This document shows, in pieces, positions 46,315 to 61,042 of a stretch of DNA of 64,000 nucleotides. The number at the start of each line of letters is the position of its first letter. Positions within the stretch are counted from its first letter, which is position 1. The notes below the pieces were generated by a model. The model worked only from the letters and a program-made list of their open reading frames with translations. It was not told where the DNA came from and searched no databases. The DNA is from Isosphaeraceae bacterium EP7 (GTDB lineage: Bacteria; Planctomycetota; Planctomycetia; Isosphaerales; Isosphaeraceae). The translations under genes were made by a program, and so were the position numbers. Location: contig CP151667.1 of the NCBI GenBank assembly GCA_038400315.1, positions 2,615,174 to 2,679,173 on the forward strand. Reading direction: 5' to 3'.

Positions 46315-47169
46315 TTATGAGGCTTTTTCGTACTCGGCGGGTGACAGGTAGCCCAGCGACGAATGCCGCCGGACTCGATTGAAGAAGACCTCGATGTACT
46401 CGAAGATGCTCGCCCTCGCCTCCGCCCTCGTCGCGAAGTTCTCGCCCTGAGTCAGCTCCTTTTTCAGGCTCGCGAAGAAGCTCTCCATCGGCGCATTATC
46501 CCAGCAGTTCGCCCGACGGCTCATGCTGCCGGTGATCCCGTGCCTGGCCAGCACCCCCCGGTAGTGCTCGCTGGCGTACTGGCTCCCCCGGTCCGAATGG
46601 GTCACCAACCCCGCGACGGGCCGCCGGCCGGCCAAGGCCATCTCCAGGGCGTCGACGACCAGCCGGCTGTCGATCCGCTCGGACATCGACCAGCCCACGA
46701 TCCGCCGCGAGTGGAGGTCCTCCACCGCCGCCAGGTAGAGCCACCCCTCGGCGGTGGCCACATAGGTGATGTCGGCCGTCCAGGCCCGATCCGGGGCCCC
46801 CGGCTCGAACTCGCGGTTCAGGACGTTCTCGGCCACGGGGCGGTCGTGGTTGGAGTCGGTCGTGACGCGGAACTTCCGCCTCGTCCTGGCGGCGATCCCC
46901 TCCCGACGCATCAGCTTGGCCACGGTGTTCACGCAGCAGGGCTCGCCCCGTGCGATCAACTCGGCGTGAATTCGAGGGCTTCCGTAGCGGGCCTTCACTT
47001 CGCCGTGGATCGCCTTGATCGAGACGACCAGGGCCTCGCGCCTCCGGGCCTGCTCGCTGTCCGGCCTTCCCCGCCAGTCGTAGTAGCCGCCGGCGGAGAC
47101 GCGCAGGACCCGGCACATCAGCCGGACCGGCCATCGATCTCGGTGGCGCTCGACGAAGCCGTACCTCAT
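46315..47169 (-). CDS. IS3-family transposase OrfB
   Basis: Complete integrase core: RAWTADITYVATAEGWLYLA (Asp), LVTHSDRGSQYASEHYRG (Asp) and NAPMESFFASLKKELTQGE (Glu), ending RRHSSLGYLSPAEYEKAS. It is a close relative of the copy at 18175-19011 but has the full C-terminus. The start overlaps OrfA by 4 bp; the slippery A6 run (plus-strand T at 47199-47204) allows an OrfAB fusion. Confidence 0.9.
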   Translation of the reverse strand: MRYGFVERHRDRWPVRLMCRVLRVSAGGYYDWRGRPDSEQARRREALVVSIKAIHGEVKARYGSPRIHAELIARGEPCCVNTVAKLMRREGIAARTRRKFRVTTDSNHDRPVAENVLNREFEPGAPDRAWTADITYVATAEGWLYLAAVEDLHSRRIVGWSMSERIDSRLVVDALEMALAGRRPVAGLVTHSDRGSQYASEHYRGVLARHGITGSMSRRANCWDNAPMESFFASLKKELTQGENFATRAEARASIFEYIEVFFNRVRRHSSLGYLSPAEYEKAS

Positions 47170-47462
47170 GACGACTCCCTGGCGAAGAAGGCCGTCGCTT
47201 TTTTCAAGATGTCGCGCTCCATCGTGAGCCGCTTGACCTCGGCCCGCAGCCGACGCAGCTCCTCCTCGTGCGCGGGCGGGTTCCCCTTGCCGGGGAAGGC
47301 CTGGTCACCGCCCTCGGCCGGGGCCCGCTTCCAGCCCCGCAGCAGGCTCTCGGAGAGGTCGAGGTCGCGTGCGACCTCGGCGACGCTCTTGCCCTGCTCG
47401 TTGACGAGCTTGACGGCCTGGGCCTTGAACTCGGGTGTGAAGGTTCGTCGTGTCGTCGCCAT
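47166..47462 (-). CDS. IS3-family OrfA
   Basis: 98 residues (MATTRRTFTPEFKAQAVKLV) with the HTH SVAEVARDLDLSESLLRGWK and a C-terminal leucine-zipper-like helix (HEEELRRLRAEVKRLTMERD). Pairs with OrfB at 46315-47169 by -1 frameshifting. Confidence 0.9.
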   Translation of the reverse strand: MATTRRTFTPEFKAQAVKLVNEQGKSVAEVARDLDLSESLLRGWKRAPAEGGDQAFPGKGNPPAHEEELRRLRAEVKRLTMERDILKKATAFFARESS

Positions 47463-47526
47463 CGGGGGACTCCTGGGTTCGAGCTTATGCTCTTAACCCG
47501 GCGCCCGCTATCCGTGGGAAAGTCCA

Positions 47527-48080
47527 GTGCGTGCGGCTGCGTCCCAAGCGCAAGGACCACGTGTGGAGCTACGACTTCGTGCAGGCGCGGACCCGCGACG
47601 GTCGGGCCTTCCGCATGCTGAACATCATCGACGAGTACACGCGGGAGTGCCTGGCCATCGACGTGGCCAGGAAGCTGAAGTCCGACGACGTGCTGGAGCG
47701 GCTCTCCGACCTGTTCGTGCGTCGCGGCGTGCCCGAGCACATCCGCAGCGACAACGGGCCGGAGTTCACGGCGAAGGCCGTGCGGGACTGGCTCGGCCGC
47801 GTGGGGTCGAAGTCGCTGTTCATCGAGCCGGGGAGCCCGTGGGAGAACGGCTATGTCGAGTCGTTCAACGGCAAGCTATCGGACGAGCTGCTGGACGGGG
47901 AGGTGTTCGATACGCTGCTGGAAGCGAAGGTACTGATTGAGCGTTGGAGGGTGAGGTACAACACTGTGCGGCCGCACAGCAGCCTGGGGTATCGCCCGCC
48001 GGCTCCGGAGGCATTCCGGCCCGGGTCGCCGGACTCCGGAGCTTTGCCCCTGCGCCCGGCCTCTATGGCCGGGAGTGACC
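47527..48080 (+). pseudogene. IS3-family OrfB, N-terminus removed by IS3 insertion
   Basis: The coding sequence enters from the IS3 end and reads VRLRPKRKDHVWSYDFVQAR (first Asp), IRSDNGPEFTAKAVRDWLG (second Asp) and PWENGYVESFNGKLSDELLD (Glu), ending PHSSLGYRPPAPEAF and a Pro-rich tail. The catalytic triad is intact, but the HTH part and OrfA are missing. The 3' boundary is the start of the next IS3 element. Confidence 0.85.
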
Positions 48081-48101
48081 TGCCCCGGAAAGTTGGACCA
48101 G

Positions 48102-48935
48102 CTAAACGAGAGCTTTTCGGTCGGACGAGGCGTTCAGATCACTGGCCTTCAATGCGGCGAAATCCCTCGGGGCCAGGTTCCCCAGGGCGCCGTGCGGGCG
48201 GACTTCATTGTAGTCGATGCGCCATGACTCCAACCGCTCCCGGGCGTCCTCCAGGCTGGTGAAGTCGGTCTGATTGAGACACTCCTCGCGCACACGCCCA
48301 TTGAAGGACTCGATGAACGCGTTGTCCGTCGGCTTGCCGGGGCGGCTGAAATCCAGCGTCACGCCGTTCAGATGGGCCCACAGGTCGAGCATCTTGCCGG
48401 TGAACTCCGGGCCGTTGTCCACACGAGGCTCACGCGGCGCCCCTCGGGTCGAAGAGACCTCTGCCATCACCTCGGCGACCTGCCCGGAGGTGAACCGCGG
48501 GGCCACTCGCATGGCCACCGCCTCGCGGGTGAACAGGTCCAGCACCGTCAGGACGCGGAGCTTGCCGCCATCCGAGAGTGCGTCGCTCATGAAGTCCATC
48601 GCCCAGGCCTGGTTGGCCGCCTCGATGGCCGGCCGGTCGTCGCGATGGCGAGAGCTCACGCGGCGTCGCGGGGCCTTCCGCCGCAACGTCAATCGCTCCA
48701 GGCCGTAGAGGCGATCGACCCGCTTGACGTTGACGGCCCAGCCCTCGCGCTCGAGCAGGATGTGCAGCCGGCGATAGCCGTATCGGACGCGGCTGGTGGC
48801 CAACTCGCGTAGCCGCAGCCGGAGGGGCTCCTGGGCATCGCGGGTCCTCCGATCGTGGTAGGTCGACCGCGGATAACCGACGACCTCGCAGGCCCGCCGC
48901 ACGCTGACGCCGAAGCGGACGGTCAGGTCCGCCAC
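48102..48935 (-). CDS. IS3-family transposase OrfB (IS51-like)
   Basis: The sequence has HTH_21-like RFGVSVRRACEVVGYPRSTY, RVRYGYRRLHILLEREGWAV, then NQAWAMDFMSDALSDGGKLR (Asp), PRVDNGPEFTGKMLDLWAHL (Asp) and PTDNAFIESFNGRVREECLN (Glu). It starts at a GTG without a good ribosome site. OrfA's A7 run (plus-strand T at 48965-48971) leads by -1 slip through KKTLSPPQRRAVVADLTV directly into this frame, so it is probably made only as OrfAB. Confidence 0.88.
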   Translation of the reverse strand: MADLTVRFGVSVRRACEVVGYPRSTYHDRRTRDAQEPLRLRLRELATSRVRYGYRRLHILLEREGWAVNVKRVDRLYGLERLTLRRKAPRRRVSSRHRDDRPAIEAANQAWAMDFMSDALSDGGKLRVLTVLDLFTREAVAMRVAPRFTSGQVAEVMAEVSSTRGAPREPRVDNGPEFTGKMLDLWAHLNGVTLDFSRPGKPTDNAFIESFNGRVREECLNQTDFTSLEDARERLESWRIDYNEVRPHGALGNLAPRDFAALKASDLNASSDRKALV

Positions 48936-48958
48936 GACCGCCCGCCGCTGCGGCGGGC

Positions 48959-49225
48959 TCAGGGTTTTTTTGCCAGGACGTCCTGGAGCATCTTCTTGTC
49001 GAGGCTCAGGTCGGCGACCAGCTGCTTGAGCTTCTGGTTCTCCTCCTCGAGCAGGCGGAGCCGCCTAACCTCGGGGGTGCCCAGCTCGCCGTACTTGGCC
49101 TTCCAGCGGAAGAAGGTGGCCTGGCTGACGCCCAGCTTGCGACAGGTCTCATCGACCCCCAGGCCGGCCTCGGCCTGCCTCAGGGCGAAGGTGATCTGCT
49201 CGACGGTGAACTTCGACTGCTTCAT
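48959..49225 (-). CDS. IS3-family OrfA (IS51-like)
   Basis: 88 residues, MKQSKFTVEQITFALRQAEA, with HTH CRKLGVSQATFFRWKAKYG and a C-terminal coiled coil (RLLEEENQKLKQLVADLSLD). It ends DVLAKKP at the slippery run. Nearly identical to the truncated copy at 19369-19580. Confidence 0.9.
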   Translation of the reverse strand: MKQSKFTVEQITFALRQAEAGLGVDETCRKLGVSQATFFRWKAKYGELGTPEVRRLRLLEEENQKLKQLVADLSLDKKMLQDVLAKKP

Positions 49226-49318
49226 GGGCCTGAGCTCCTAAGACTCGAGGCCTCATCGTATCCGAACTCTCAAGTGCGATGGCCCAGGAAATCGGGGGCA
49301 CGTCATCCCATGCCGATT

Positions 49319-50404
49319 CTCAAATGCGATGGGCTAGATTCCGGGGTCAAGCGCACCGCCGACATCACCCCACTCGTCACCCAGCACACGATCCATCGCT
49401 TCTGGTGCTCCCGCTGCAAAACCACCGTCGAGCCCATCGTGGCTGATGCTCTGCCGGGTTCGACCATCGGCCTGCGGGTGCTGGTCTTCTCCGCCTGGCT
49501 GCATTACCTTTTGGGCACCACCATCGCCCAGATCCTCGACGTCTTCAACTTCCATCTCCAACTGAAGCTATCCGCCGGTGGCCTGGTTGCGATGTGGCGT
49601 CGCTTGGCTGAGGTTCTCGCCGCCTGGGACCAGCAGATCCACAACCAGGCGTTGCAAAGTGCCGTGCTCCACGCCGATGAGACCGGCTGGCGGGTCGAAG
49701 GCAAAACCCACTGGCTCTAGTGCTTCGCCGCGAAGGATCTGACCTACTACCTGATCGACCGGAGTCGGGGCAGTCCGGCATTGATGCGGTTCTTCCAGGC
49801 CGAGTTCGCCGGGGTCTTGGTGACCGACTTCTGGGGGGCGTACAACGCTGTGGTGTGTGCCCGAAAACAACGGTGCCTGCCCCACCTGCTGCGCGATCTG
49901 AAGCGAACGCAGCATTACCACAAGCCGGAGGGGGACTGGCCGGAGTTTCGCCGCAAGTTGAAGCGGCTGATCCGCGACTCGATCCGGCTGAGCAAGCGGA
50001 AAAAGGAGTTGTCGGCCGAGGCGTTCGCCTCGCGTCGCAAGCGGTTGGACCTGCGGCTGAACCAGATCCTGGACGGGTCGTGGCAGGAGCGGCACGCGCG
50101 GCGGTTAGTGAAGCGGTTGCGGCGGCACGCCGGGGAGTTGTTCACGTTCCTGGACCACGACGGAGTGCCGTTCGACAACAACCACGGCGAGCGACAGATC
50201 CGGCCGGCGGTGTTGGCCAGGAAGAACAGTTATGCCAACGGCAGCGATCAAGCGGCAAGCACGCAGGCGAGCCTGATGAGCGTGTTCCGAACGCTGAAGC
50301 AGCGAGGCCACAACCCGGTATCGGTGGTGACCGAAGCGGTCCGCACCTCGCTCAAGTCGGGTCAACTTCCACCCCTACCTGAACCCGTCCCTGCACTCGG
50401 CTGA
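49319..50404 (+). pseudogene. IS66-family TnpC, N-terminally truncated, in-frame TAG
   Basis: The frame opens inside the IS66 transposase (ITPLVTQHTIHRFWCSRCK, a zinc-finger Cys pair) and runs to VLHADETGWRVEGKTHWL (first Asp). A TAG at 49718-49720 stands where IS66 proteins usually have Trp (WLWCF). The same frame continues CFAAKDLTYYLIDRSRGSPA, GVLVTDFWGAYNAVV (second Asp) and PFDNNHGERQIRPAVLARKN (Glu), to TGA at 50404. The coiled-coil N-terminus is missing. Confidence 0.88.
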
Positions 50405-50514
50405 AGGCTTACGAAAGTGTGAAGTGTCCGACCGAGACAGACTCGAGATCCGACTCTCGCCGAGCAACGGCCTGTGACGATGGAGGCATCGTGTCGCCGC
50501 AATCAAGCTCCTGA

Positions 50515-50841
50515 AGCGCCAGATGTTCGGTCGAGCCGGATTCGTGCTCCTGCGGTGCCGATTCCTTCGGGCCGGGTGGCTCTCGGATCATCGTGGAGGA
50601 AGAGCGGGTCACCGATCAAGAGATGCAGAGATTTATCCTTTTGAACGGATCAAGTCTGTCGGACAGCGGCGGCTTCGTTTGGCCGATGGTCTCACGAAGC
50701 AGGCCAAGCACTTCTCACCTGGCCGCGTCACGGAAATTGCGGGAGAGCCGGAGCCCGGCCATCGGCCTTCTGGCGTTCCTGGCCCTCGCGTCAGGCGGCC
50801 TGGCCACCGGCGCGATCCGGCTACGCCGTCGTCACCCCTAG
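50515..50841 (+). pseudogene. C-terminal end of a probable exported protein with membrane anchor
   Basis: Downstream of the IS66 remnant, the plus strand is open from after a TGA at 50512-50514 to TAG at 50841. It encodes Ser-rich sequence, then a hydrophobic segment (PAIGLLAFLALASGGLAT) and a basic tail (RLRRRHP). A strong hairpin follows 12 bp after the stop, which supports a true gene end. The 5' part is missing or replaced by the IS. The tail resembles that at 2775-2907. No other family clue. Confidence 0.4.
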
Positions 50842-50853
50842 CTTGATGGCCGG

Positions 50854-50883
50854 CCCCCGCCGCGGCACCGGCCGCGGCGGGGG
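50854..50883 (+). terminator. GC-rich hairpin terminator
   Basis: CCCCCGCCGCGG at 50854-50865 pairs with CCGCGGCGGGGG at 50872-50883 across a 6-base loop. A T-rich tract (TTTCTTTT) follows after about 10 bases. It is placed to terminate the plus-strand gene ending at 50841. Confidence 0.7.
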
Positions 50884-50959
50884 TGGCCGCCGCCTTTCTT
50901 TTAACCATGGCCCCGTCCCCCGGTGCACCGGTGACCGAGCCCCTCGGTCGGCCCGGGCC

Positions 50960-50993
50960 GGGACTCCCTGATTAACGTTAATCAGTGAGTCCC
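50960..50993. repeat. 34-bp near-perfect palindrome
   Basis: GGGACTC, one unpaired C, the perfect palindrome CTGATTAACGTTAATCAG, one unpaired T, then GAGTCCC. The AT-rich centre stands out from the GC-rich surroundings. It lies between the plus-strand gene end at 50841 and the end of the minus-strand RT operon. It could be a bidirectional terminator, a protein-binding site or an element boundary. Confidence 0.6.
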
Positions 50994-51359
50994 CTTTGCG
51001 ACCTTCATGATCGCCGACGTGGCCAGGCGGCTCGCGCTGGTCTTCCCGGCCCCGGGCGGGCATGGATTGCTACGGCGAAACGGACCGATTGATCGAACCC
51101 TTCGCCGGCCGCCGGCGAATTGAAAGCGTGCCGATCGGGGTGAGGACAGCCTCAACTTGCAGGCTCGGGCCGCACGGGCAACGGAAACGGTCGAGTCGAG
51201 GTTCGAGCGACCCGCGTCGCCACTCAGCGCGGTCGAGATTCTCGCCTCTTCGACCGCCGCCAGTAGCTTCTCCCCGATGATAATCAGCCCAGCCCATGGT
51301 CAGCTCGCCACGCGTCGGCGGACAGGCAGCCGCTCGTCAGTCCGCCTAGCATCTCTGGG

Positions 51360-51520
51360 GAATCGGACTCGATCCATCGAGTGGGCCTGAGTGTCGTCGC
51401 AGGGTTTGAGAAACGTCTTCGATCGAGCGTGAACCGGGTCTCCGGAACGAGCCCGGGCCGGGCGAAGTCAGCCTCGCCCGGCCCAGGCCTCGAGATGCGA
51501 AGTGAGCTTCGCACCCCGGT
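51360..51520 (-). ncRNA. Candidate structured RNA downstream of the RT gene
   Basis: Three hairpins occur within 150 bp after the RT stop: ACTCGA/TCGAGT (51367-51382), an 11-bp stem GGGCCGGGCGA/TCGCCCGGCCC with 8-base loop (51455-51484), and TGCGAAG/CTTCGCA (51496-51513). The nearest is 57 bp from the stop codon. They could be terminators, or an RNA used by the RT. The rest of 50994-51569 shows no supported gene. Confidence 0.35.
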
Positions 51521-51569
51521 CGATGTGTGGCATGCGGAGCTGCCACGCGACGCAAGTCGCACAGCGGCC

Positions 51570-52814
51570 CTACCCGCCCCCTCCGCGCTCATGCCTCGTG
51601 CGTTCCCACCGCCCGTGTGCCTCACGGCACCATCCCAACGTGGTCTCGCGCGGTGCAACCTCGCGGAAGCCGAGTGCGGCCGCGATCCCCAGGATCCGGC
51701 CCGTCATGGCGGCTGCATGCTGCGGCCCGAAGGCCGGCCCGAGCGAACCGATCCAACCCCTGCAGATGGCCAGGGCCATGGAGGGCGGGTCCGGGTCCTC
51801 GTGGGCCGATTCGAGTTCGGTCTGGAGCTTGGTCCAGGCAGTCCTCCCCGGTGAGAGTTGGAGTCGGTCGTCCTGCCAGCGGAGGGCGAATCCCAGGAGC
51901 CGGCATTCGCCGCGTCGGAGGTCGAAGGGCGGCCCGTCCTGCTGCTTCAGGTTGTGGCCCGCACGATCCAGGAGTTCCCGGGACGCGTCGAGTGCATCCG
52001 TAGCTTCGGCCTCGTCCTCGCAGGTGTAGATCAGGTTGTCGGCGTAGCGCAGCCAGGGGATCTCGTTCGGGCGCCCCCGGAAGGCCCGGTCATGGCATGC
52101 GTCCAGTCGGACGTTCAGAAGCAGCGGCGAGATCGGATCGCCCTGGTCGATGCCCGCGACGCGGGCCAGGTCGGTCGACCCGCGGATGACGGCCTCGACC
52201 AGGGCGTGGAGTCGTCGGTCCTCGATGGGATCGGTCAGGTCCTCCAGGAGGCACGGGATGGAGACATTGTCGAAGGCCGCCTCGACGTCGTCGATCGCCA
52301 GGACATACCGGCTCCTCGCGGCCATGTCCGCCTCGAGCGTCGCCAGCAGGGTCCACGTATTGCGTCCCGGCCGGAATCCGTGCGAGCGATCGTCCAACGA
52401 GGGCTCGAACACCGGCGAAAGGACCTCGAGCAGGGCCTTGGAGATCACCCGGTCCGCGACGCCGCGGATCGTCAGGGTCCTGGTCTTGCTGCTGCCGGCC
52501 TTCGGGATCGCCACGCGGCGTGACGGCCCGGGCTTATAGGTCCCGTCGCGGATCGTCGCGGCCAGATCGCGTAGGACCGCGGCGGTCTCGCGGCGCCCGA
52601 GGTCCTGGTAGGTGACGCCGTCGGGGCCCGGCGCTTGCCCTCCTTTCGCACGAAGTTCGTCGTAGATGGCGATCAGGAACTCGTGGTCCCCGACCTGCGC
52701 GAGGCTCGGACTCCCGCCGTCCGCCAGGCCCGATCGGGCACGACGGCGGGCGCGACGCATGGCGTAGAAGTCGCCAGGGCCGAGGGGCGCGCGGATCGAG
52801 CCATAGCCGCTCAT
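51570..52814 (-). CDS. Reverse transcriptase, group II intron-like (RVT_1), YADN variant
   Basis: 414 residues. RT blocks in order: GPDGVTYQDL (63-72), SRRVAIPKAGSSKTRTLTIR (98-117), FEPSLDDRSHGFRPGRN (136-152), motif A AIDDVEAAFDNV (173-184; catalytic Asp 176), motif B GIDQGDPISPLLLNV (221-235), motif C LRYADNLIYTC (255-265) and thumb-side LRRGECRLLGFAL. Group II-type RTs normally have YADD; the second Asp is Asn here. No maturase-like X or HNH domain and no intron RNA were recognised. The start ATG overlaps the stop of the helicase-like gene (ATGA), so the two are translationally coupled. It lacks DGR-type SQ in motif B. Confidence 0.92.
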   Translation of the reverse strand: MSGYGSIRAPLGPGDFYAMRRARRRARSGLADGGSPSLAQVGDHEFLIAIYDELRAKGGQAPGPDGVTYQDLGRRETAAVLRDLAATIRDGTYKPGPSRRVAIPKAGSSKTRTLTIRGVADRVISKALLEVLSPVFEPSLDDRSHGFRPGRNTWTLLATLEADMAARSRYVLAIDDVEAAFDNVSIPCLLEDLTDPIEDRRLHALVEAVIRGSTDLARVAGIDQGDPISPLLLNVRLDACHDRAFRGRPNEIPWLRYADNLIYTCEDEAEATDALDASRELLDRAGHNLKQQDGPPFDLRRGECRLLGFALRWQDDRLQLSPGRTAWTKLQTELESAHEDPDPPSMALAICRGWIGSLGPAFGPQHAAAMTGRILGIAAALGFREVAPRETTLGWCREAHGRWERTRHERGGGG

Positions 52815-54328
52815 CGGAAGCCCCCGGGCCGGGTGGCGAGGAAGTGATCGAGGGGAGTCGGCGGTTTGACCCCGTCGACGGTCCAGCCCCGCAGGCGATA
52901 GGCCTCACGCCGCGATCGGCTCCGCCTTCGCAGCTCGGCCGACCGGCGATCGACGAGGTCGATCACACGCAGTGGACTTGAAGTCAACTCGTTCGGCACC
53001 GCGATGCCGCAGAGCTTGGGGGGCAGGCCCGCCCCGCCATCCGCGCGGATCAGCACGTCCAGGTCCCCCAGGAACCATCCGTCGATCGCCGAGGGCGTCA
53101 CGATGATGCCGTGGCCCTCGGCCACTTCGTCGTGGACCTCGACGAGGGCCCGGTCGCCCTGCGGCAACCCATCGAGGTCGGCATGGTTCGCCGCAGCGAT
53201 CGACCAGCCTTCGAGTCGGTTAAAGAGCGCCATCGCGTGCTCGAGGTTCGCGGCGAGGACGGCGACCCGCGCCCTGGTCGTGGGGGCTGCCGTCGGATCC
53301 GGGTGCGACGCATATTTCGCCAGATTTGACCTCGCCAGGTTTGCGACGATCCGGGTCCTCGCCTCGTTGTGCCAGATTCCGGCCCGGAGGTGCCGCGCCA
53401 GGCTCGGATGGTCCGGGATGGCGGGCCTGCCGTCGTATGTCCGGAAATCCACCTCGACGTCTCGCAACCGCTGGCCATGCGCGGGGACGAAGCATTCCTC
53501 GAATCCGAACGCCGCGCGGAGCTGATCCCGGTCGAGCGAAGCGGACGCGGGGCCGTCGAGCAGGAAGCCGAACCGACGCGCGTGCCGCGAGAAACCCAGC
53601 GGGAATCGGGCACGGACGCCGAGCGCGTCCATCGCGTCCGGGAAGAGGAGGAGCCGACGCTCGTGGAATCGTGCGGCGGGATCTCCCATGCCGAGCTCGG
53701 TCCCCACCGCGATCTGCACCGGGCCCTCACGCGATGCATGGCTCGTGTACCGGCCCGCGGAGAGGCCGTAGCGACCGAGTTCGCGGGCCACCCCGTCCAC
53801 GTCCTCGCGCCGAGTTACGACGACGGCAATCAGCAAGCCCGGCCAAGCGGCCGCGATTTGAGCGATCAGGAAGATCGGGTTGACCTGCTTTCCGAGGTGG
53901 AGCAGACCGGACTCGCGCGATCGCACGAAGTCGATCATCGGCCGATCGACGACTCGAAGGTTCGCCGGCTTGGCCGCGACTGGCTCGGGGAGCGGATCCC
54001 CGGCCCCGAGATCGTGGACGACCAGGCCCGATTCCCGGAGCTTGAGGGCGACCAGTTCGCGGAGGCAGCACGGGATCGCGATCCTCGCGATGCCCCCACT
54101 CGACGGGCCGAAATCGCGGTCGAGCCGCGCGCATTCGACGTCGATCCGGCTCCCTCCACCGGAATCGGCCCGCAGGACGTGGCGGGAGGTGCCGAGCGCG
54201 GCCACGAGTTCGGGTGGAGGATCCTCGACGATGAATTCATCCTCGAATCGATCGATGACCACGGTTCGCCGCTCGACTGTTCGGCGAGCGGCTTTCCGCG
54301 GGCGATTTCGCCCTCGATCCCGGCTCAT
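52811..54328 (-). CDS. Helicase-like protein with degenerate P-loop, RT-operon member
   Basis: 505 residues. The layout follows SF2-type phage/plasmid helicases: a P-loop position GLLHLGKQVNPIFLIAQIAA (141-160) that has lost the usual GxGKT/S pattern, a strand IAVVVTRREDVDGVARELGR, VQIAVGTELGMGDP, a motif-II position LLLFPDAMDALG without DEAH, and a C-terminal block RVIDLVDRRSAELRRRSRSR. The last is typical of helicase ends that read DR-x-x-P-x-L-RRxSxxRR. I infer an ATPase-dead relative. Basic N-terminus (RKAARRTVERR). Coupled by ATGA overlaps to the HTH gene upstream and the RT downstream. Family identity is from memory of related sequences. Confidence 0.65.
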   Translation of the reverse strand: MSRDRGRNRPRKAARRTVERRTVVIDRFEDEFIVEDPPPELVAALGTSRHVLRADSGGGSRIDVECARLDRDFGPSSGGIARIAIPCCLRELVALKLRESGLVVHDLGAGDPLPEPVAAKPANLRVVDRPMIDFVRSRESGLLHLGKQVNPIFLIAQIAAAWPGLLIAVVVTRREDVDGVARELGRYGLSAGRYTSHASREGPVQIAVGTELGMGDPAARFHERRLLLFPDAMDALGVRARFPLGFSRHARRFGFLLDGPASASLDRDQLRAAFGFEECFVPAHGQRLRDVEVDFRTYDGRPAIPDHPSLARHLRAGIWHNEARTRIVANLARSNLAKYASHPDPTAAPTTRARVAVLAANLEHAMALFNRLEGWSIAAANHADLDGLPQGDRALVEVHDEVAEGHGIIVTPSAIDGWFLGDLDVLIRADGGAGLPPKLCGIAVPNELTSSPLRVIDLVDRRSAELRRRSRSRREAYRLRGWTVDGVKPPTPLDHFLATRPGGFR

Positions 54329-54714
54329 CGTCCGGGCCTTCCGCCGGTCGTGCCATCCACCTCAGATCCCAATGTCGCGGGAAGCGCGTCGCCGAGCCCG
54401 CGCCCGATCAGTCGCTCGAGCTGCTCCCTCGGGACCAGGAGCCGGCCTTTCGGGCCGGTGCCGGTGACCCGGACGGCGTGCAATTTCCCCTGCTTCACCC
54501 AGCTCCGGACGGTGTACGAGGCCCGGCCGGTGAGCTCGGCGATCTCCTCGATGGTGTAATGCGACTTCCGCGAATGGCCGAGCAGGTTGTGGATCTCGCC
54601 CAGCATCCGGTGGACGTCGCGGACGAACTCCGCCATGGCCGCGGGATCGAGGCCGGGCTGGCGTGGGTCGGGGCCGGCCTGATGGGGACGAGGAAACGGT
54701 CGGGTCGTATCCAT
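54325..54714 (-). CDS. Helix-turn-helix DNA-binding protein (excisionase/MerR-like)
   Basis: 129 residues from ATG 54714 (MDTTRPFPRPHQAGPDPRQP). A Pro-rich leader and a helix (AEFVRDVHRMLGEIHNLLGH) precede a winged HTH: YTIEEIAELTGRASYTVRSW, then VKQGKLHAVRVTGTGPKGRL and LVPREQLERLIGRG, the layout of HTH_17/excisionase domains. It may regulate the operon or the integrase. The stop overlaps the next start (ATGA). The frame is open further upstream to 55065, but codon content there does not look like protein. Confidence 0.75.
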   Translation of the reverse strand: MDTTRPFPRPHQAGPDPRQPGLDPAAMAEFVRDVHRMLGEIHNLLGHSRKSHYTIEEIAELTGRASYTVRSWVKQGKLHAVRVTGTGPKGRLLVPREQLERLIGRGLGDALPATLGSEVDGTTGGRPGR

Positions 54715-55061
54715 GGATGCACGCCTCGGTACGCTCAGGAATCCGGCAAGGCCGGGGTCCGGATACTGGTTGCGACCGAGGTGGCGCCGATCAAGCGGGA
54801 TGGAATAGGCGAGGGGAGCCGGGCGACAAGACGCGGAGGAACAAACGCCGCGGATGGCGTCGCCTCGGGTCGCAACCAGCTTGGTTTGGGGGTCTTCGGG
54901 ATCGGGGAGATCCCGGAGAGTCGTCACGCGGCGCTGACTGCCAGTGCCCGAAACTCGGGACTTGTGACGACCGATCCAGGCTAACCATCGCGTCGTGATG
55001 CGGCAATGCCATGTCGTGGAATTTCGACCCGGGCTCCCGGCCATGCTGCGGATGCCTTGAT

Positions 55062-57131
55062 TCAATAAGTATCGCGGACCTCGATGACGAATAGGTCATG
55101 CGTGAATCGCAGAGATCCTGCCGCGGCCCGCGTCGCGGCCGTCACGAGCGACGAGTTCGCGGCCCGATCGTCCGGCCCTGCGGGGGCATCGATCAGGATC
55201 TGATCATGGAATGCGCCTGCCACGCAGAGTCCTTGCTCGACGACCGAGAAGAGGACCTCCTTGCGGACGGCGTCCGCGAGATCAAGGAGGATCGCGCGGT
55301 GCACCCCGGCGAAGGCGCGTCCCCCCACGATCCTCCCCGTCGCGGTCACGACCGAACGGGAGAAGATCGCCTCGTGCAACGCCTTGCTGCCGGATCCGGA
55401 CTCCAGGACTGTTCGCAGGGCCGGATTGCGGCAGATGGCGGCCATCCGACGCAGGAGCGATCGATCCCTGGATCTCCCCGAGATCAAATTCCTGAGCGAC
55501 GCGTCGTGCTCATCTCGTTGGCGACCGATGATCGAAGCCAGCTCGGACGTCTCGCAGGCCAGGGCCCGGAGCAACGTCAGGACGACCTCATCGTCGGGAA
55601 GGTAGACGCGTTCCAGCCCGGTTTCCGCAGTCATGATTCGCTGGTACTCCGCGGACTTGCTTGCATCGATCTCGATCCCGCGCTCCAGGCCCAGCATGAC
55701 CCGCGACTGGGCGGCGCTGTAGCCGCGGGTCAGCCCGCGGAGGAAGGTCTCCGAGATCGCTAGTAGGCGTCGGCACTCGGCCGGATCCTTGGCAATCTCC
55801 GAGGTGAACTCCTCACCGGCGAGCGGCGGCTCGTGGAATCTCGATGCGACCTCGGCGATCGGGTCGATTCCCGCCCGGAACCACCCCGCCAGCTGGGAGC
55901 AGCCGCCCTGCCGCTCGACCAGCTCCGCGAAGCATCGGAGCTCAAGATCGCGCAGGTACAACACGAGGAATTTGCGACCCGGCCCCGGTTCGAAGATCGG
56001 GGCGTCGACGAGCCGGCGTAGGCCGACGACGTCCGGGTTGTAGGCGCGAATCGCCGGCACAACCTCGTAGGCCGGAAGGAAGATCCGGTCGCCCGCCAGG
56101 CGAGCCATGGCAACCTTGAGATCTGCTGCGATCGTCAATTGCGACCAGGCCTCGAGGATCGGATCGAGATGAATCAAGTCTCCCCAACGCCTGGGGTCGA
56201 TGCTGACATTCCCATCACCATCCTCGGGTGTCTCGATGGATAGTTGCCGTTCATCCGTCGAGTTGGAGGCGGCCTGGCCGAGCAGGATCGCGAGTTTCTT
56301 CGGCCTAGCGTCGGGGAATTTCCCGTCCTTCAGGCGAACGTCCTCGCCGTCCCATCGGAAGCAATCCTGCGCCCGCGCGTCGCGCCCGAGGCTGAGCGAG
56401 CTCGCCCTGTAGATTTGGTCGGCTTGCGTGTCGAGCGTCTCGAGCTGATCGGCCCGGACTCGCAGGCCTCGCCTCGTCGCCCGGGCCAGCGTGACCGCCC
56501 CGCGGACCTCGATCCCCAGGCCGAGCGGGCCGTGCCGGCAGATGACCCCGAGATCGAGGCCCTCCTCTTCGCAAATCCGGTCAACTTGCTCGCGGAGGGC
56601 GTGCTCGATCTCGCGGGTCGCGCACGCTCGTTCCAGGAGTGTGACGGACCCCGAATCGGATTCGGTAGCCGCCCCCCCGGTCGACGGGCCATACGTTCTG
56701 ATTGGCGCCTCGGCCGATCCAACATAAAGGTCGGAACGGTAATGGCCGAGCTCGTCGAGGGTCCTAGTTACGGGTGAGCTCGCACCGTCCGCCAGCCAGA
56801 CGAGTTGGTCGAGCAGCCTCACGTCGACGATCCGATTTGTCCGGCACAGCTCCAGGAGGACCTGCCCGGGCTCGCCAACCTCCCCGACGCAGTCCGCGAT
56901 CGACCAGAACCACATGCGCGAGTCGTAGCAGGCGAATGTGCGGTCGCGATGCGAGAGCAGGAACGGCCCGATCTCGCCGGGTTGCAGGATGCACGAATCG
57001 GCTCCCGTATCCGCCGCGGCGAGGGCGACCGTAGGGGTCGAAGCCCGACCATGAGTCGCTTCGTTTATCTCGACCGCCATCGCGATCGTCCCACCGCTCA
57101 AGATGCGGCCTCCCCACGCGAACTCGTGCAT
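55062..57131 (-). CDS. Family-A DNA polymerase-like protein lacking key catalytic residues
   Basis: 689 residues. An N-terminal 3'-5' exonuclease-like region (60-115: FACYDSRMWFWSIADC, RIVDVRLLDQLVWLA) is followed by a palm-like region (LGIEVRGAVTLARATRRGLR, 206-225). A motif A position LYLRDLELRCFAEL (391-404) matches DYSQIELR but has Tyr for the catalytic Asp. The motif B area (LLAISETFLRGLTRGYSAAQ) lacks the Arg/Lys of RxxxKxxNF. TATGRIVGGRAF and motif C FHDQILIDAP (641-650) keep the His-Asp of VHDE. I infer a pol I fold without normal activity. An alternative start is at 57080. Lies between the integrase and HTH genes, same strand. Confidence 0.6.
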   Translation of the reverse strand: MHEFAWGGRILSGGTIAMAVEINEATHGRASTPTVALAAADTGADSCILQPGEIGPFLLSHRDRTFACYDSRMWFWSIADCVGEVGEPGQVLLELCRTNRIVDVRLLDQLVWLADGASSPVTRTLDELGHYRSDLYVGSAEAPIRTYGPSTGGAATESDSGSVTLLERACATREIEHALREQVDRICEEEGLDLGVICRHGPLGLGIEVRGAVTLARATRRGLRVRADQLETLDTQADQIYRASSLSLGRDARAQDCFRWDGEDVRLKDGKFPDARPKKLAILLGQAASNSTDERQLSIETPEDGDGNVSIDPRRWGDLIHLDPILEAWSQLTIAADLKVAMARLAGDRIFLPAYEVVPAIRAYNPDVVGLRRLVDAPIFEPGPGRKFLVLYLRDLELRCFAELVERQGGCSQLAGWFRAGIDPIAEVASRFHEPPLAGEEFTSEIAKDPAECRRLLAISETFLRGLTRGYSAAQSRVMLGLERGIEIDASKSAEYQRIMTAETGLERVYLPDDEVVLTLLRALACETSELASIIGRQRDEHDASLRNLISGRSRDRSLLRRMAAICRNPALRTVLESGSGSKALHEAIFSRSVVTATGRIVGGRAFAGVHRAILLDLADAVRKEVLFSVVEQGLCVAGAFHDQILIDAPAGPDDRAANSSLVTAATRAAAGSLRFTHDLFVIEVRDTY

Positions 57132-57299
57132 GGCCTTCGGCTCCGCCTGTGATTTCGCCCTCGACCCAGCTTACCTACCCGAGGAGGTCGTTCCGATCCC
57201 CTGCAACGGGGACACGTCAGCACTCGCAGCAGCCCTCTCGATTCAATCCTCGCAATCCAGGCCCCGACGCGTTCGACCCGCCGCCCGACCCGGCCATCG

Positions 57300-58547
57300 T
57301 CAGCTCGCCCCCTCGGAGGGCTCGTCGCCGAAGCTGAGGGACTCGATGGCCGAGCGGCGGTCGTCCGGATGCAGATGACGGTATCGCTTGCGCATCCCCT
57401 CGGTCTGGTGGCCCATCCACTCGTCGATGATCCGCTGATCGACGCCGCGCGAGGCCAGGTTGCTGGCGAAGCTGTGCCGGTAGGTGTGGAAGCCCACCTT
57501 GAACCAGTTGCGTTTGCTGTCCAGGCACCACCCCGTCCCGCGCATCGGCTGCCAGAAAGCCCGGTTGGCGCGGTCGGTGCCCAGGGCGTCGGGGCTCCCC
57601 GGCTCGCAGACGACGTGCTGCCCGCCAGGTCGCTTGCGCGACCATTCGTCCAGGATCCGACGGAGTTCGGGGTGGAGGTCGATCCTCCGGGCCGTCGAGA
57701 CCGTCCGGCGCGACTGCTTGAGACTGCGTGCGACGACCTGTCGGCGGTCCAGCTCGACGTCCTCCCACCGCAGGCGAAGGACCTCGCCCCGCCGCATCCC
57801 CGTATACGCGGGGATTGCGTGCAGGAGATGGGCGAAGTCGGCCTCGGCCCGCTCGTTCACCGACCTCAGGAGCCCGCCGATCTCGCCCGGCGCGAGGTAA
57901 AGACAGTCCCAGAGCCCGGCGGACTCCGCCGCCGACAGGCCGCCCCGAGACTGCATCCGCTCGATCTCGGCGATCGTTCGGAAACGCGGCAGCTCGGCAT
58001 GCTCCTTGATCGGAGCCAGGTCGGACGCCGGCGAGGATTCCAGGTAGCCGTTGGCGACCGCCCAGGCGAAGAGCTGGCCGACCGTGTCGCGCTCCTTGTG
58101 GACCGTGCTGGGCCACCTCAGCTTCAGCCGGGCCTGGAGGAACTGGTCCAGGTCGCGGTGCGCGATCGCGTCGGCGGACGCCTCGGCCTTCGGCCCCAGG
58201 GCGCGCATGAGGTTGCGGAGGTGGACCCCCTCGGTGTAGACCGTCGAGGGGGCCTTGTGCGACTGCCCCTGCAAATAGGACGCGGCCAGGGCGGCCAGGG
58301 TCGGGGCCCGCCGCCGCGAGCGGGCAGGGGCCCTGAGCGTGCCGCCGCTGACGATGAAGTCGCCGGGGTCGACGCCGGGCGGGACCTCGATGAGCCCCGT
58401 GAGCAGGCCGTGGATGGCCCGCTCGAGTCCCTTGATCGCGACGCGGGCGTCGGCCGCGTCCGTCGTCTTCAGGGACTTCTTGTATTCCTTGCCGCCGTGC
58501 CGGAAGCGGGCGACGAACGTGTCGCCCTTCTTGCCCAGGTACGCCAT
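57300..58547 (-). CDS. Tyrosine site-specific recombinase (phage-type integrase)
   Basis: 415 residues from ATG 58547 (MAYLGKKGDTFVARFRHGGK). An N-terminal SAM-like/arm domain (KAPSTVYTEGVHLRNLMRAL) precedes a catalytic domain with AIPAYTGMRRGEVLRLRWED (first Arg), GFHTYRHSFASNLASRGVD (HxxR) and MGHQTEGMRKRYRHLHPD (nucleophile Tyr). Complete in length and residues. It lies about 175 bp from the tRNA-Leu 3' fragment, as expected for an integrase beside its attachment site, and it heads the minus-strand RT-containing gene block. Confidence 0.92.
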   Translation of the reverse strand: MAYLGKKGDTFVARFRHGGKEYKKSLKTTDAADARVAIKGLERAIHGLLTGLIEVPPGVDPGDFIVSGGTLRAPARSRRRAPTLAALAASYLQGQSHKAPSTVYTEGVHLRNLMRALGPKAEASADAIAHRDLDQFLQARLKLRWPSTVHKERDTVGQLFAWAVANGYLESSPASDLAPIKEHAELPRFRTIAEIERMQSRGGLSAAESAGLWDCLYLAPGEIGGLLRSVNERAEADFAHLLHAIPAYTGMRRGEVLRLRWEDVELDRRQVVARSLKQSRRTVSTARRIDLHPELRRILDEWSRKRPGGQHVVCEPGSPDALGTDRANRAFWQPMRGTGWCLDSKRNWFKVGFHTYRHSFASNLASRGVDQRIIDEWMGHQTEGMRKRYRHLHPDDRRSAIESLSFGDEPSEGAS

Positions 58548-58675
58548 CGCACCGACCCTCCCCGCCTCGGAGTGGCAGCCCACGCACCCGGACAACCGGG
58601 CTGTGGGGAATGCCACACGGTGCCACAGGATCGCCGGCCGAGGCACTCCGGAGGCACCGACGGGGAATGGTAACG

Positions 58676-58711
58676 AAAAAAGGGCCCGCGGCAATTCGCC
58701 GCAAGCCCTTT
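58676..58711 (-). terminator. Intrinsic terminator after tRNA-Leu fragment
   Basis: On the minus strand, AAAGGGC pairs with GCCCTTT and GCGGC with GCCGC around a GAATT loop, followed by a T6 run (plus-strand A at 58676-58681). It sits 11 bp after the tRNA 3' end and suits termination of that tRNA. Confidence 0.85.
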
Positions 58712-58721
58712 CGCTGCATAG

Positions 58722-58775
58722 TGCCGGAGACAGGACTTGAACCTGCACGGGAATAAATTCCCTCTAGCCCCTCAA
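58722..58775 (-). tRNA. tRNA-Leu (GAG) 3'-half fragment, probable attachment site
   Basis: The minus strand reads TTGAGGGGCTAG (anticodon loop and 3' stem), a variable arm with a GGGAAT/ATTCCC stem, GTGCAGGTTCAAGTCCTGT (T arm) and CTCCGGCA (acceptor 3' strand). The matching 5' strand GCCGGAG and the D arm are absent upstream. The break is at the anticodon loop, a common crossover point for tyrosine integrases. Partial: not a functional tRNA as it stands. Confidence 0.8.
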
Positions 58776-58989
58776 GGTAGTAAACCAGCATCGTACCAGC
58801 GTTGGCTCTGCGTCAGATCTGCATCGATCCCTCTGGAGTTGTTCGACTTGGAACGAAATCGCGTCGGATCTGTGTTGGTTCAACCCAGGTCTGATGTGGG
58901 CTACGCGGGTGTAAGCACGGTGTAAGGGCGACGCATAAGGATACGATCTCCGGTTTTCCGTCGGAGGCGGCAGACTGGTGCTTAATCGC

Positions 58990-59420
58990 GTTAGGGCAGA
59001 TCCAGCTGAATCTGCCCTGGCTGGCCTGGGCCGATCGGCTCGACCGGCTCGGGGTGCTGCAGGGGGCACACACGCCTCAGATCAAGGGGCAGATCGCACC
59101 GGAGCTGCTCGACCAAGCCCGCGACGAGTGCCAGCCGGTGAAGGTCGTGGTGGCCGACAGCGGCTGCGGCAACTCGGGACGGTTCTGCGACGGCCTGGCC
59201 GGGCGGGGCCTGCACTCCGTCGTCGGCGTCAGCGGAGAGAGGGTCGTCTCCGCCGAGGTGCCGCCATGGGGCGTGCCGAAGCCCTCCACCGGCGGCCGGC
59301 CGCAGAATCGACGCCGGCTCGCGGCCGACTCACCGCGGCCGGTGAGCCCGTCCGAGCTGGCCACCCGGACGCCCCGGCAGAATGTGACGTGGCGCGAGGC
59401 GACCAAGTGTCTGGATTTCT
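58990..59420 (+). pseudogene. IS701-type transposase internal fragment
   Basis: Frames read LNLPWLAWADRLDRLGV, then GAHTPQIKGQIAPELLDQAR and VVVADSGCGNSGRFCDGLAG (second Asp), ending NVTWREATK. These correspond to the middle of the relic at 10713-11875 but are more diverged (for example SGCGNSG versus SCYSVSG). Both ends of the gene are missing. Confidence 0.75.
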
Positions 59421-60592: not shown

Positions 60593-61042
60593 TCACCGCC
60601 CCGGTTCGCGCCGTCTCGGGAGGGCGTGGAACAGCAGCGCCACGACGGAGTACAGCTCGAACAGGCAGGGGGCGGCCCGCTCGACCGTCTTGCGACACCG
60701 GCCCCGCGTCGTCTCCAGGCCGAGGTGGGCCCGGGCCTCCTGGAAGGTGGATTCGACCTGCCATCGCTGCCCCCTCCGTTCCGGGAGCAGGCCGTTGCGG
60801 CGATAACGCAACAGCTCGTCGTGGGAGATCGCCCACGATTTCGACGCACTCCGGCCGGAGCCGCGCTTGCCCGCGTGGACCCGGCCCAGGCGGCACCACT
60901 GCCTGACGGCGAACTCCGCCTTGCCGACTGCGCGGGCGAACTCGTCGGTGGAGTAATGCTCCTTGACCGACTCGCGCTCGAGCAGCGAGGCCAGCATCTG
61001 CTCGATCCTGTCCAGCCGATCGATCATCTCGCCGTCCGCCAT
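60593..61042 (-). CDS. HTH protein joined to a transposase fragment
   Basis: ATG 61042 (MADGEMIDRLDRIEQMLASL) begins a short coiled coil and an excisionase-like HTH: YSTDEFARAVGKAEFAVRQW, CRLGRVHAGKRGSGRSASKS and SHDELLRYRRNGLLPERR. From about 60775 the same frame changes to RWQVESTFQEARAHLGLETT and LYSVVALLFHALPRR, part of an IS4-like transposase with the catalytic-Glu-type VESTFQEA block. The join looks accidental. The HTH domain itself appears intact and could be expressed. Confidence 0.6.
   Translation of the reverse strand: MADGEMIDRLDRIEQMLASLLERESVKEHYSTDEFARAVGKAEFAVRQWCRLGRVHAGKRGSGRSASKSWAISHDELLRYRRNGLLPERRGQRWQVESTFQEARAHLGLETTRGRCRKTVERAAPCLFELYSVVALLFHALPRRREPGR

Follow-up and report, generated by a model that had tools for sequence, protein, structure and literature searches.

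Group II-like reverse transcriptases (RTs) of planctomycetes have been described under the label 'group II-like 5' (G2L5) from Planctomyces (Gimesia) maris and Blastopirellula marina; the group was defined on three planctomycete sequences, was given neither a function nor a partner, and was omitted from a later tree as an unsupported group (PMC4244168, PMC4424553, PMC8934634). The two G. maris RTs share 28% identity, and IS3-type transposase genes lie beside one of them (PMC8934634). Here we analysed a 64,000-nt stretch of the 7.2-Mb genome of Isosphaeraceae bacterium EP7 (G000:C1:2615174-2679173, hereafter the window), in which an operon on the minus strand at 51570-58547 encodes, in this order, a tyrosine integrase, a protein like family A DNA polymerases (PolA-like; pPolA), a helix-turn-helix (HTH) protein, a helicase-like protein (HEL) and an RT. 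The true conserved unit is the pair of helicase-like protein and RT, and the five-gene operon consists of two modules. The pair, HEL-RT, is probably a new kind of RT system carried by mobile DNA.

Like the G2L5 proteins, the RT of the window is a planctomycete group II-like RT without a ribozyme. The HEL-linked RTs differ from G2L5 as described: they form a supported clade of 46 members, fall into two active-site subtypes, and have a pseudohelicase as partner and a spacer that bears an RNA. One surveyed genome (G428) was found to encode two such RTs sharing 29% identity, with IS3-type transposase neighbours at one locus (L019). Both features match the published description, which makes it probable that the two genes are those of the G. 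maris RTs and that the HEL-linked RTs extend the function-less G2L5 label, which with them becomes a large recurrent two-protein system. No description of the HEL partner, of the active-site subtype found in the window, of the spacer RNA or of the backbone with a dead PolA was found in the open-access literature searched.

HEL and RT form a conserved pair

Using a ten-sequence profile, HEL was detected in 47 of 398 Planctomycetia genomes (12%), representing 34 of 186 genera; it matched nothing in Pfam, PHROGs, NCBIfam or PADLOC. The RT gene was located 3' of HEL on the same strand in 45 of the 51 HEL loci read. The six exceptions were two contig ends (L093 and L121), two broken HEL genes (L104 and L113), one locus whose RT is encoded on the other strand (L106) and one without an RT (L101). 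In the reverse survey, 33 RTs of the family had scores of 206 bits or more, and about 28 of them adjoined HEL; ordinary group II introns, often multi-copy, scored 197 bits or less. At six loci (L018, L088, L102, L107, L115 and L210) HEL and RT were present in one open reading frame, and since five of the six belong to one RT clade, the fusion may have occurred only once or twice.

In the window, the initial annotation had reported five open, closely packed genes on one strand, with ATGA joins linking the HTH, helicase-like and RT genes. Both observations were confirmed, the joins lying at 54325-54328 (HTH/HEL) and 52811-52814 (HEL/RT) and the third-position GC of the five genes being normal for coding (0.80 to 0.92). 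The adjacency, the overlapping genes and the fusions together suggest that HEL and RT work together. That annotation had also made recurrence of the gene set its own test, and recurrence was observed, in that the full order of integrase, pPolA, HTH, HEL and RT is present in two further genomes from other families (L118 and L176), besides the pairing described above. Most HEL-RT loci are without the integrase-pPolA-HTH backbone.

The earlier helicase-like assignment was borne out by profile comparison, the HEL family aligning with the intact superfamily 2 (SF2) helicase L047 over 373 columns (hhalign E=1.1e-9; one helicase compared). L047 itself matches XPBII, RAD25 and UvsW in the PDB. Unlike XPB/UvsW-type SF2 helicases, HEL has lost the ATPase motifs: Walker A (GKT/GKS) is absent at the aligned positions in every surveyed HEL (about 50 members in the motif table), and Walker B (DExH) and motif VI are also lost. 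Judged by these motifs, HEL looks inactive.

The HEL-linked RTs comprise two active-site subtypes

The RT of the window has kept the motif A Asp (IDDVEAAFDN) and exhibits YADN in place of YADD in motif C. RVT_1 is its sole Pfam domain, with no maturase domain and no RNase H domain. Its score against TIGR04416 was 164.5 bits, below the cut-off of 300, and the nearest solved structures were the GsI-IIC RT (E=6e-55) and the G2L4 RT (E=3e-18). An IQ-TREE analysis of 52 RTs, from which the motif C DN/DD column itself was left out, placed 46 HEL-linked RTs in one clade (100/99) apart from group II introns. The last two residues of motif C are DN in 28 RTs, including that of the window, and DD in most others. 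The 28 DN RTs form one clade (100/99) inside the HEL-linked clade, corresponding to one change of state. The RTs retain the Asp of motif A and the first Asp of motif C, so the DN subtype may still be catalytic. A GDN motif works in the RNA polymerases of negative-strand RNA viruses, so YxDN is no proof of inactivity. The YxDD sister RTs look active from their sequences.

A search of genome contigs with the RT returned only an RT of Paludisphaera soli and the Cas1-type RT of a Myxococcales metagenome-assembled genome, and a search of viral contigs gave no matches. The Myxococcales protein (L050:2317-5751) looks like an RT with a Cas1-like portion after it.

The subtypes also differed in the spacer between HEL and RT, the median being 27 nt (or the genes fused) in the DN subtype versus 492 nt in the DD subtype (p=8e-7, a descriptive value for loci taken as independent, uncorrected for kinship, with a trait that changed once on the tree). 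The DD spacer is mostly 0.3 to 0.55 kb; in a minority of DD loci the spacer is short and the RT instead has an extension of roughly 200 aa. In L112, L114 and L116 the spacer was found to contain covarying helices, with 11 both-side pair changes compared with 4.0 in shuffled and no more than 2 in slid alignments (three sequences only), and to exhibit no codon periodicity; a DNA search produced no further members of this RNA. The spacers of L021 and L045 fold far better than their shuffles, and that of L042 has a strong fold. The L021-group spacer contains an open frame, but its reading as a gene was rejected, as substitutions showed no clear third-position excess. That the spacer of the sister subtype bears an RNA suggests that an RNA serves as partner or template. 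The two subtypes offer a natural active-site experiment, in which one Asp-to-Asn change coincides with the absence of the RNA-bearing spacer. In three DN-subtype members, the RT is followed by a 164-nt stretch conserved among them.

The HEL-linked RTs of L021, L042 and L089 were observed to carry a C-terminal extension of about 150 aa. The extension of L021 is an RNase H (NCBIfam NF046109, E=1.2e-40), which is unusual for a bacterial RT.

Comparison with other RT systems

HEL-RT resembles retrons and the DRT (defence-associated RT), UG and Abi (abortive infection) RTs in that an RT is found with a partner protein on mobile DNA, and in the structured RNA of the DD sister subtype. It is distinguished from them by the pseudohelicase partner and the YxDN motif. 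With the PADLOC models, the RT of the window scored 57.7 bits for Drt9 and 55.6 bits for UG21 versus 134.8 bits for a generic RT model; no DRT or retron model was the best match, and the retron models scored much lower than the generic RT and the group II models. No msr-msd RNA was matched in Rfam, and a structured spacer was present in the DD subtype only. Rfam likewise gave no match, and so no group II ribozyme, in the window; around the operon, one unrelated miRNA model and one tRNA model were all that appeared at E<=5. The G2L4 and group II intron RTs are the closest by sequence among solved structures, but the HEL-linked RTs differ from them in having no ribozyme or maturase domain and in forming a separate clade. 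No Cas1 was detected in the whole genome (control genomes were positive), indicating that this is not a CRISPR-associated RT. No template repeat/variable repeat pair of a diversity-generating retroelement (DGR) was found, the longest direct repeat within 50400-59000 being 32 nt at 78%. The view first taken of the layout, that it is unlike those of retrons, DGRs, CRISPR-RTs and Abi RTs, therefore stands for all the retron, DGR, CRISPR-RT and Abi/DRT models tested.

HEL-RT occupies the cargo slot of a tRNA-targeted element

The window holds a tRNA-Leu-targeted integrative element with a recurrent backbone and a variable cargo slot. Genes for the integrase, PolA-like and HTH proteins were consecutive in seven other genomes (L118, L164, L170, L175, L176, L177 and L180); the PolA-like motifs of L177 were unreadable, and two more loci showed part of the trio, namely integrase and dead PolA in L163 and dead PolA and HTH in L169. 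The backbone integrases share 46 to 56% identity with that of the window. The HTH protein matches TIGR01764 ('excise') at 29.1 bits (cut-off 28.8) and has homologues in the same position in L118, L164, L169, L170, L175, L176, L177 and L180. The trio reads away from a tRNA (Leu, Gln or Asp) or its 3' fragment: a whole tRNA was present 5' of the homologous integrase in six relatives (Gln in L163 and L164, Asp in L170 and L180, Leu in L175 and L177), and a 3' fragment in the window, L118 and L176. The tyrosine integrase and excisionase-like HTH protein beside a tRNA 3' end are as in other tRNA-targeting integrative elements, whereas the dead PolA is a recurrent backbone gene here.

Of the tRNA-Leu association proposed initially, the exact 3' copy of tRNA-Leu was verified (Table 1), but it is a fragment, and the window has no whole copy of this tRNA gene. 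An intact tRNA-Leu(GAG) (G000:C1:2721679) lies 47.8 kb to the right of the fragment, and because the 47.8 kb between the two has its own integrase, we interpret the arrangement as a tandem insertion at one tRNA gene. A search for a left-hand att repeat was negative; the second copy is the intact tRNA, which lies to the right past the second integrase. The second element, of about 47.8 kb (G000:C1:2673895-2721705), has its own tyrosine recombinase (L056:8173-9570) and adjoins the intact tRNA-Leu(GAG).

The slot after the HTH gene is occupied by HEL-RT in the window, L118 and L176, by DUF927 in L164, by DUF927 and Toprim in L177, and by a 493-aa protein without assignment in L180. Since the gene set in this position differs among the backbone loci, the operon of the initial annotation is a backbone plus a cargo. 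The RTs of the window and L118 were not sisters in the tree, which indicates that HEL-RT reached the same backbone on at least two occasions. The exchangeable slot is a place to mine for further unknown systems. In L175 it holds a 900-aa protein (L175:7538-10240) with PolB-like motifs recognised by eye (DVDLKGCYNSIL, KVQANSMYG and ITDG), no Pfam match and a weak PHROGs polymerase match. In L169 and L170 it holds a RuvB-like ATPase, an AAA_5 ATPase and a DUF2201 metallopeptidase/VWA protein, possibly another uncharacterised system.

The backbone polymerase appears to be catalytically dead

pPolA could be aligned end to end with PolA proteins of planctomycete integrative elements that occur in the same gene order (25 to 31% identity, best E=1e-41). 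Six of the seven aligned relatives match DNA_pol_A, the polymerase motifs are kept, and several of the intact relatives adjoin replication genes. Unlike them, pPolA has lost catalytic residues, the alignment revealing Tyr for the motif A Asp, Glu for the motif B Lys and EIN for the exonuclease DTE. It had no match in Pfam, PADLOC, PHROGs or NCBIfam. A profile built from the two dead PolAs in the window and in L118 identified further examples; none of the nine dead PolAs whose motifs could be read retains the motif A Asp or the motif B Lys. In the tree, the nine were split from 15 intact PolAs at a 100/99 branch, with long branches and an unsure inner order, and they form one separate, fast-evolving group.

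A role for pPolA as a specific partner of the RT was rejected, because intact PolA relatives occur without HEL-RT and because the dead PolA belongs to a backbone that elsewhere bears quite different cargo. The original picture of an RT encoded with pol I-like and helicase-like proteins on an integrative element is therefore retained as regards the identities and the shared operon; pPolA and HEL both look inactive, and pPolA is not specific to the RT. A TubC_N docking domain was noted at the N terminus of three of the seven element PolAs in the alignment. The element PolAs of L026 and L027 have intact polymerase motifs and have lost the exonuclease motif.

Possible function of HEL-RT

The explanation that we favour, at what we judge to be an even chance, is that HEL-RT is an element-borne, RT-based system for conflict with phages or rival elements. 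We infer that HEL and RT, being products of overlapping genes, most likely form one complex, in which HEL, lacking its ATPase motifs, would contribute nucleic-acid binding or sensing. For RTs of the YxDD subtype, the structured RNA encoded between HEL and RT may be the template or scaffold. In the subtype of the window, the missing spacer and the Asn for the second motif C Asp suggest either altered chemistry (other metal use, or untemplated or differently primed synthesis) or an RT that acts as a binding platform. The complex would act in conflicts with phages or competing elements, in the manner of retrons and DRT systems. Its patchy spread, the repeated loading as cargo and the divergence of HEL, faster than that of RT in 12 of 14 pairs, would suit a conflict system. 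A more specific proposal, which we put forward tentatively and with less than even confidence, is an entirely new class of bacterial retro-system that has an RNA-guided or RNA-templated RT bound to an ATPase-less SF2 helicase, has moved between dead-PolA backbones and includes a YxDN branch, arisen once and kept in 28 of 28 members, with either new chemistry or a non-catalytic role.

Several observations weigh against a conflict system. HEL-RT fits none of the defence models in PADLOC, and no noncoding RNA was recognised in the DN subtype to which the window belongs. Relaxed constraint could account for the rate difference, and some of the 14 pairs are not independent of each other. The AlphaFold2 model of HEL, built from two sequences, had a pLDDT (predicted local distance difference test) of 34 and was not used. 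Among the six further backbone loci whose slot could be read, three have replication-type genes in it (DUF927, alone or with Toprim, or the PolB-motif protein), and a ParB-like gene lies 5' of HEL-RT in 14 loci; both point to replication or maintenance of the element. HEL-RT might accordingly be a replication, priming or maintenance module in a slot otherwise used by helicase-primase or PolB-like genes, copying or stabilising the excised element with the ParB-like and HTH proteins. The descent of pPolA from element polymerases that adjoin primase or helicase genes is consistent with this possibility, which, like defence, had been raised in the initial annotation. It is the main rival, but we consider it the less likely of the two, since a HEL without ATPase motifs and a predominance of YxDN RTs would be odd for a replicase, the backbone is absent from most HEL-RT loci, and the gene set in the slot of L169 and L170 is not a replicase.

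It is improbable, in our estimate, that the inactivated pPolA, HEL and YxDN RT are decoys that bind replication intermediates without catalysis and thereby block or sense the replication of phages or rivals. The losses in all nine dead PolAs and in every HEL, and the retention of the motif C Asn in 28 of 28 DN RTs, would agree with such a role, but these RTs keep their motif A Asp and first motif C Asp and have sisters of active appearance. We regard it as very doubtful that HEL-RT is a mobile retroelement of group II intron descent, without the ribozyme but still moving by RNA. Group II intron RTs are the nearest families and many of the loci lie in mobile DNA, yet neither an Rfam ribozyme match nor a maturase domain was present, and the loci are unlike recent multi-copy insertions, true group II introns in the class having at least seven copies listed per genome. 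That unrelated genes gathered by chance on a decaying island, as the insertion sequence (IS) elements and broken genes all around might suggest, is hardly credible; it is already contradicted by the survey, which found one shared gene order in three genomes from different families, the reciprocal association of HEL and RT, and the fusions.

Features of the locus and its surroundings

The coordinates of the features are listed in Table 1; the RT and integrase motifs seen at first reading were both confirmed by the Pfam matches given there. The hairpin array after the RT stop exhibited strong folding (z of -7.1 for 51450-51599) and had no DNA match in the nearest relative.

Table 1. Features of the HEL-RT locus (window positions)
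Feature	Position	Strand	Length	Basis or remark
RT, group II intron-like reverse transcriptase	51570..52814	-	414 aa	RVT_1 E=4.1e-19
HEL, SF2 (XPB/UvsW-like) pseudohelicase	52811..54328	-	505 aa	hhalign of family versus intact SF2 helicase
HTH_17/excisionase-type DNA-binding protein	54325..54714 (ATG at 54714)	-	129 aa	HTH_17 E=3.6e-9
pPolA, catalytically dead family A DNA polymerase	55062..57131	-	689 aa	Alignment with intact element PolAs
Tyrosine integrase	57300..58547	-		Phage_integrase PF00589 E=9.2e-18
tRNA-Leu(GAG) 3' end, attachment-site remnant 5' of integrase	58722..58748	-	27 nt	Exact 27-nt copy
Hairpin array immediately 3' of RT stop	51376..51572	-		Strong folding; candidate terminator or RNA

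IS elements and broken genes crowd the surroundings of the operon. To its left, at 46315-50404, lies a cluster of transposase genes and gene fragments that by eye resemble IS3 and IS66. Beyond the tRNA fragment, a second HTH protein is encoded at 60593-61042 and has weak similarity to the HTH protein of the backbone.
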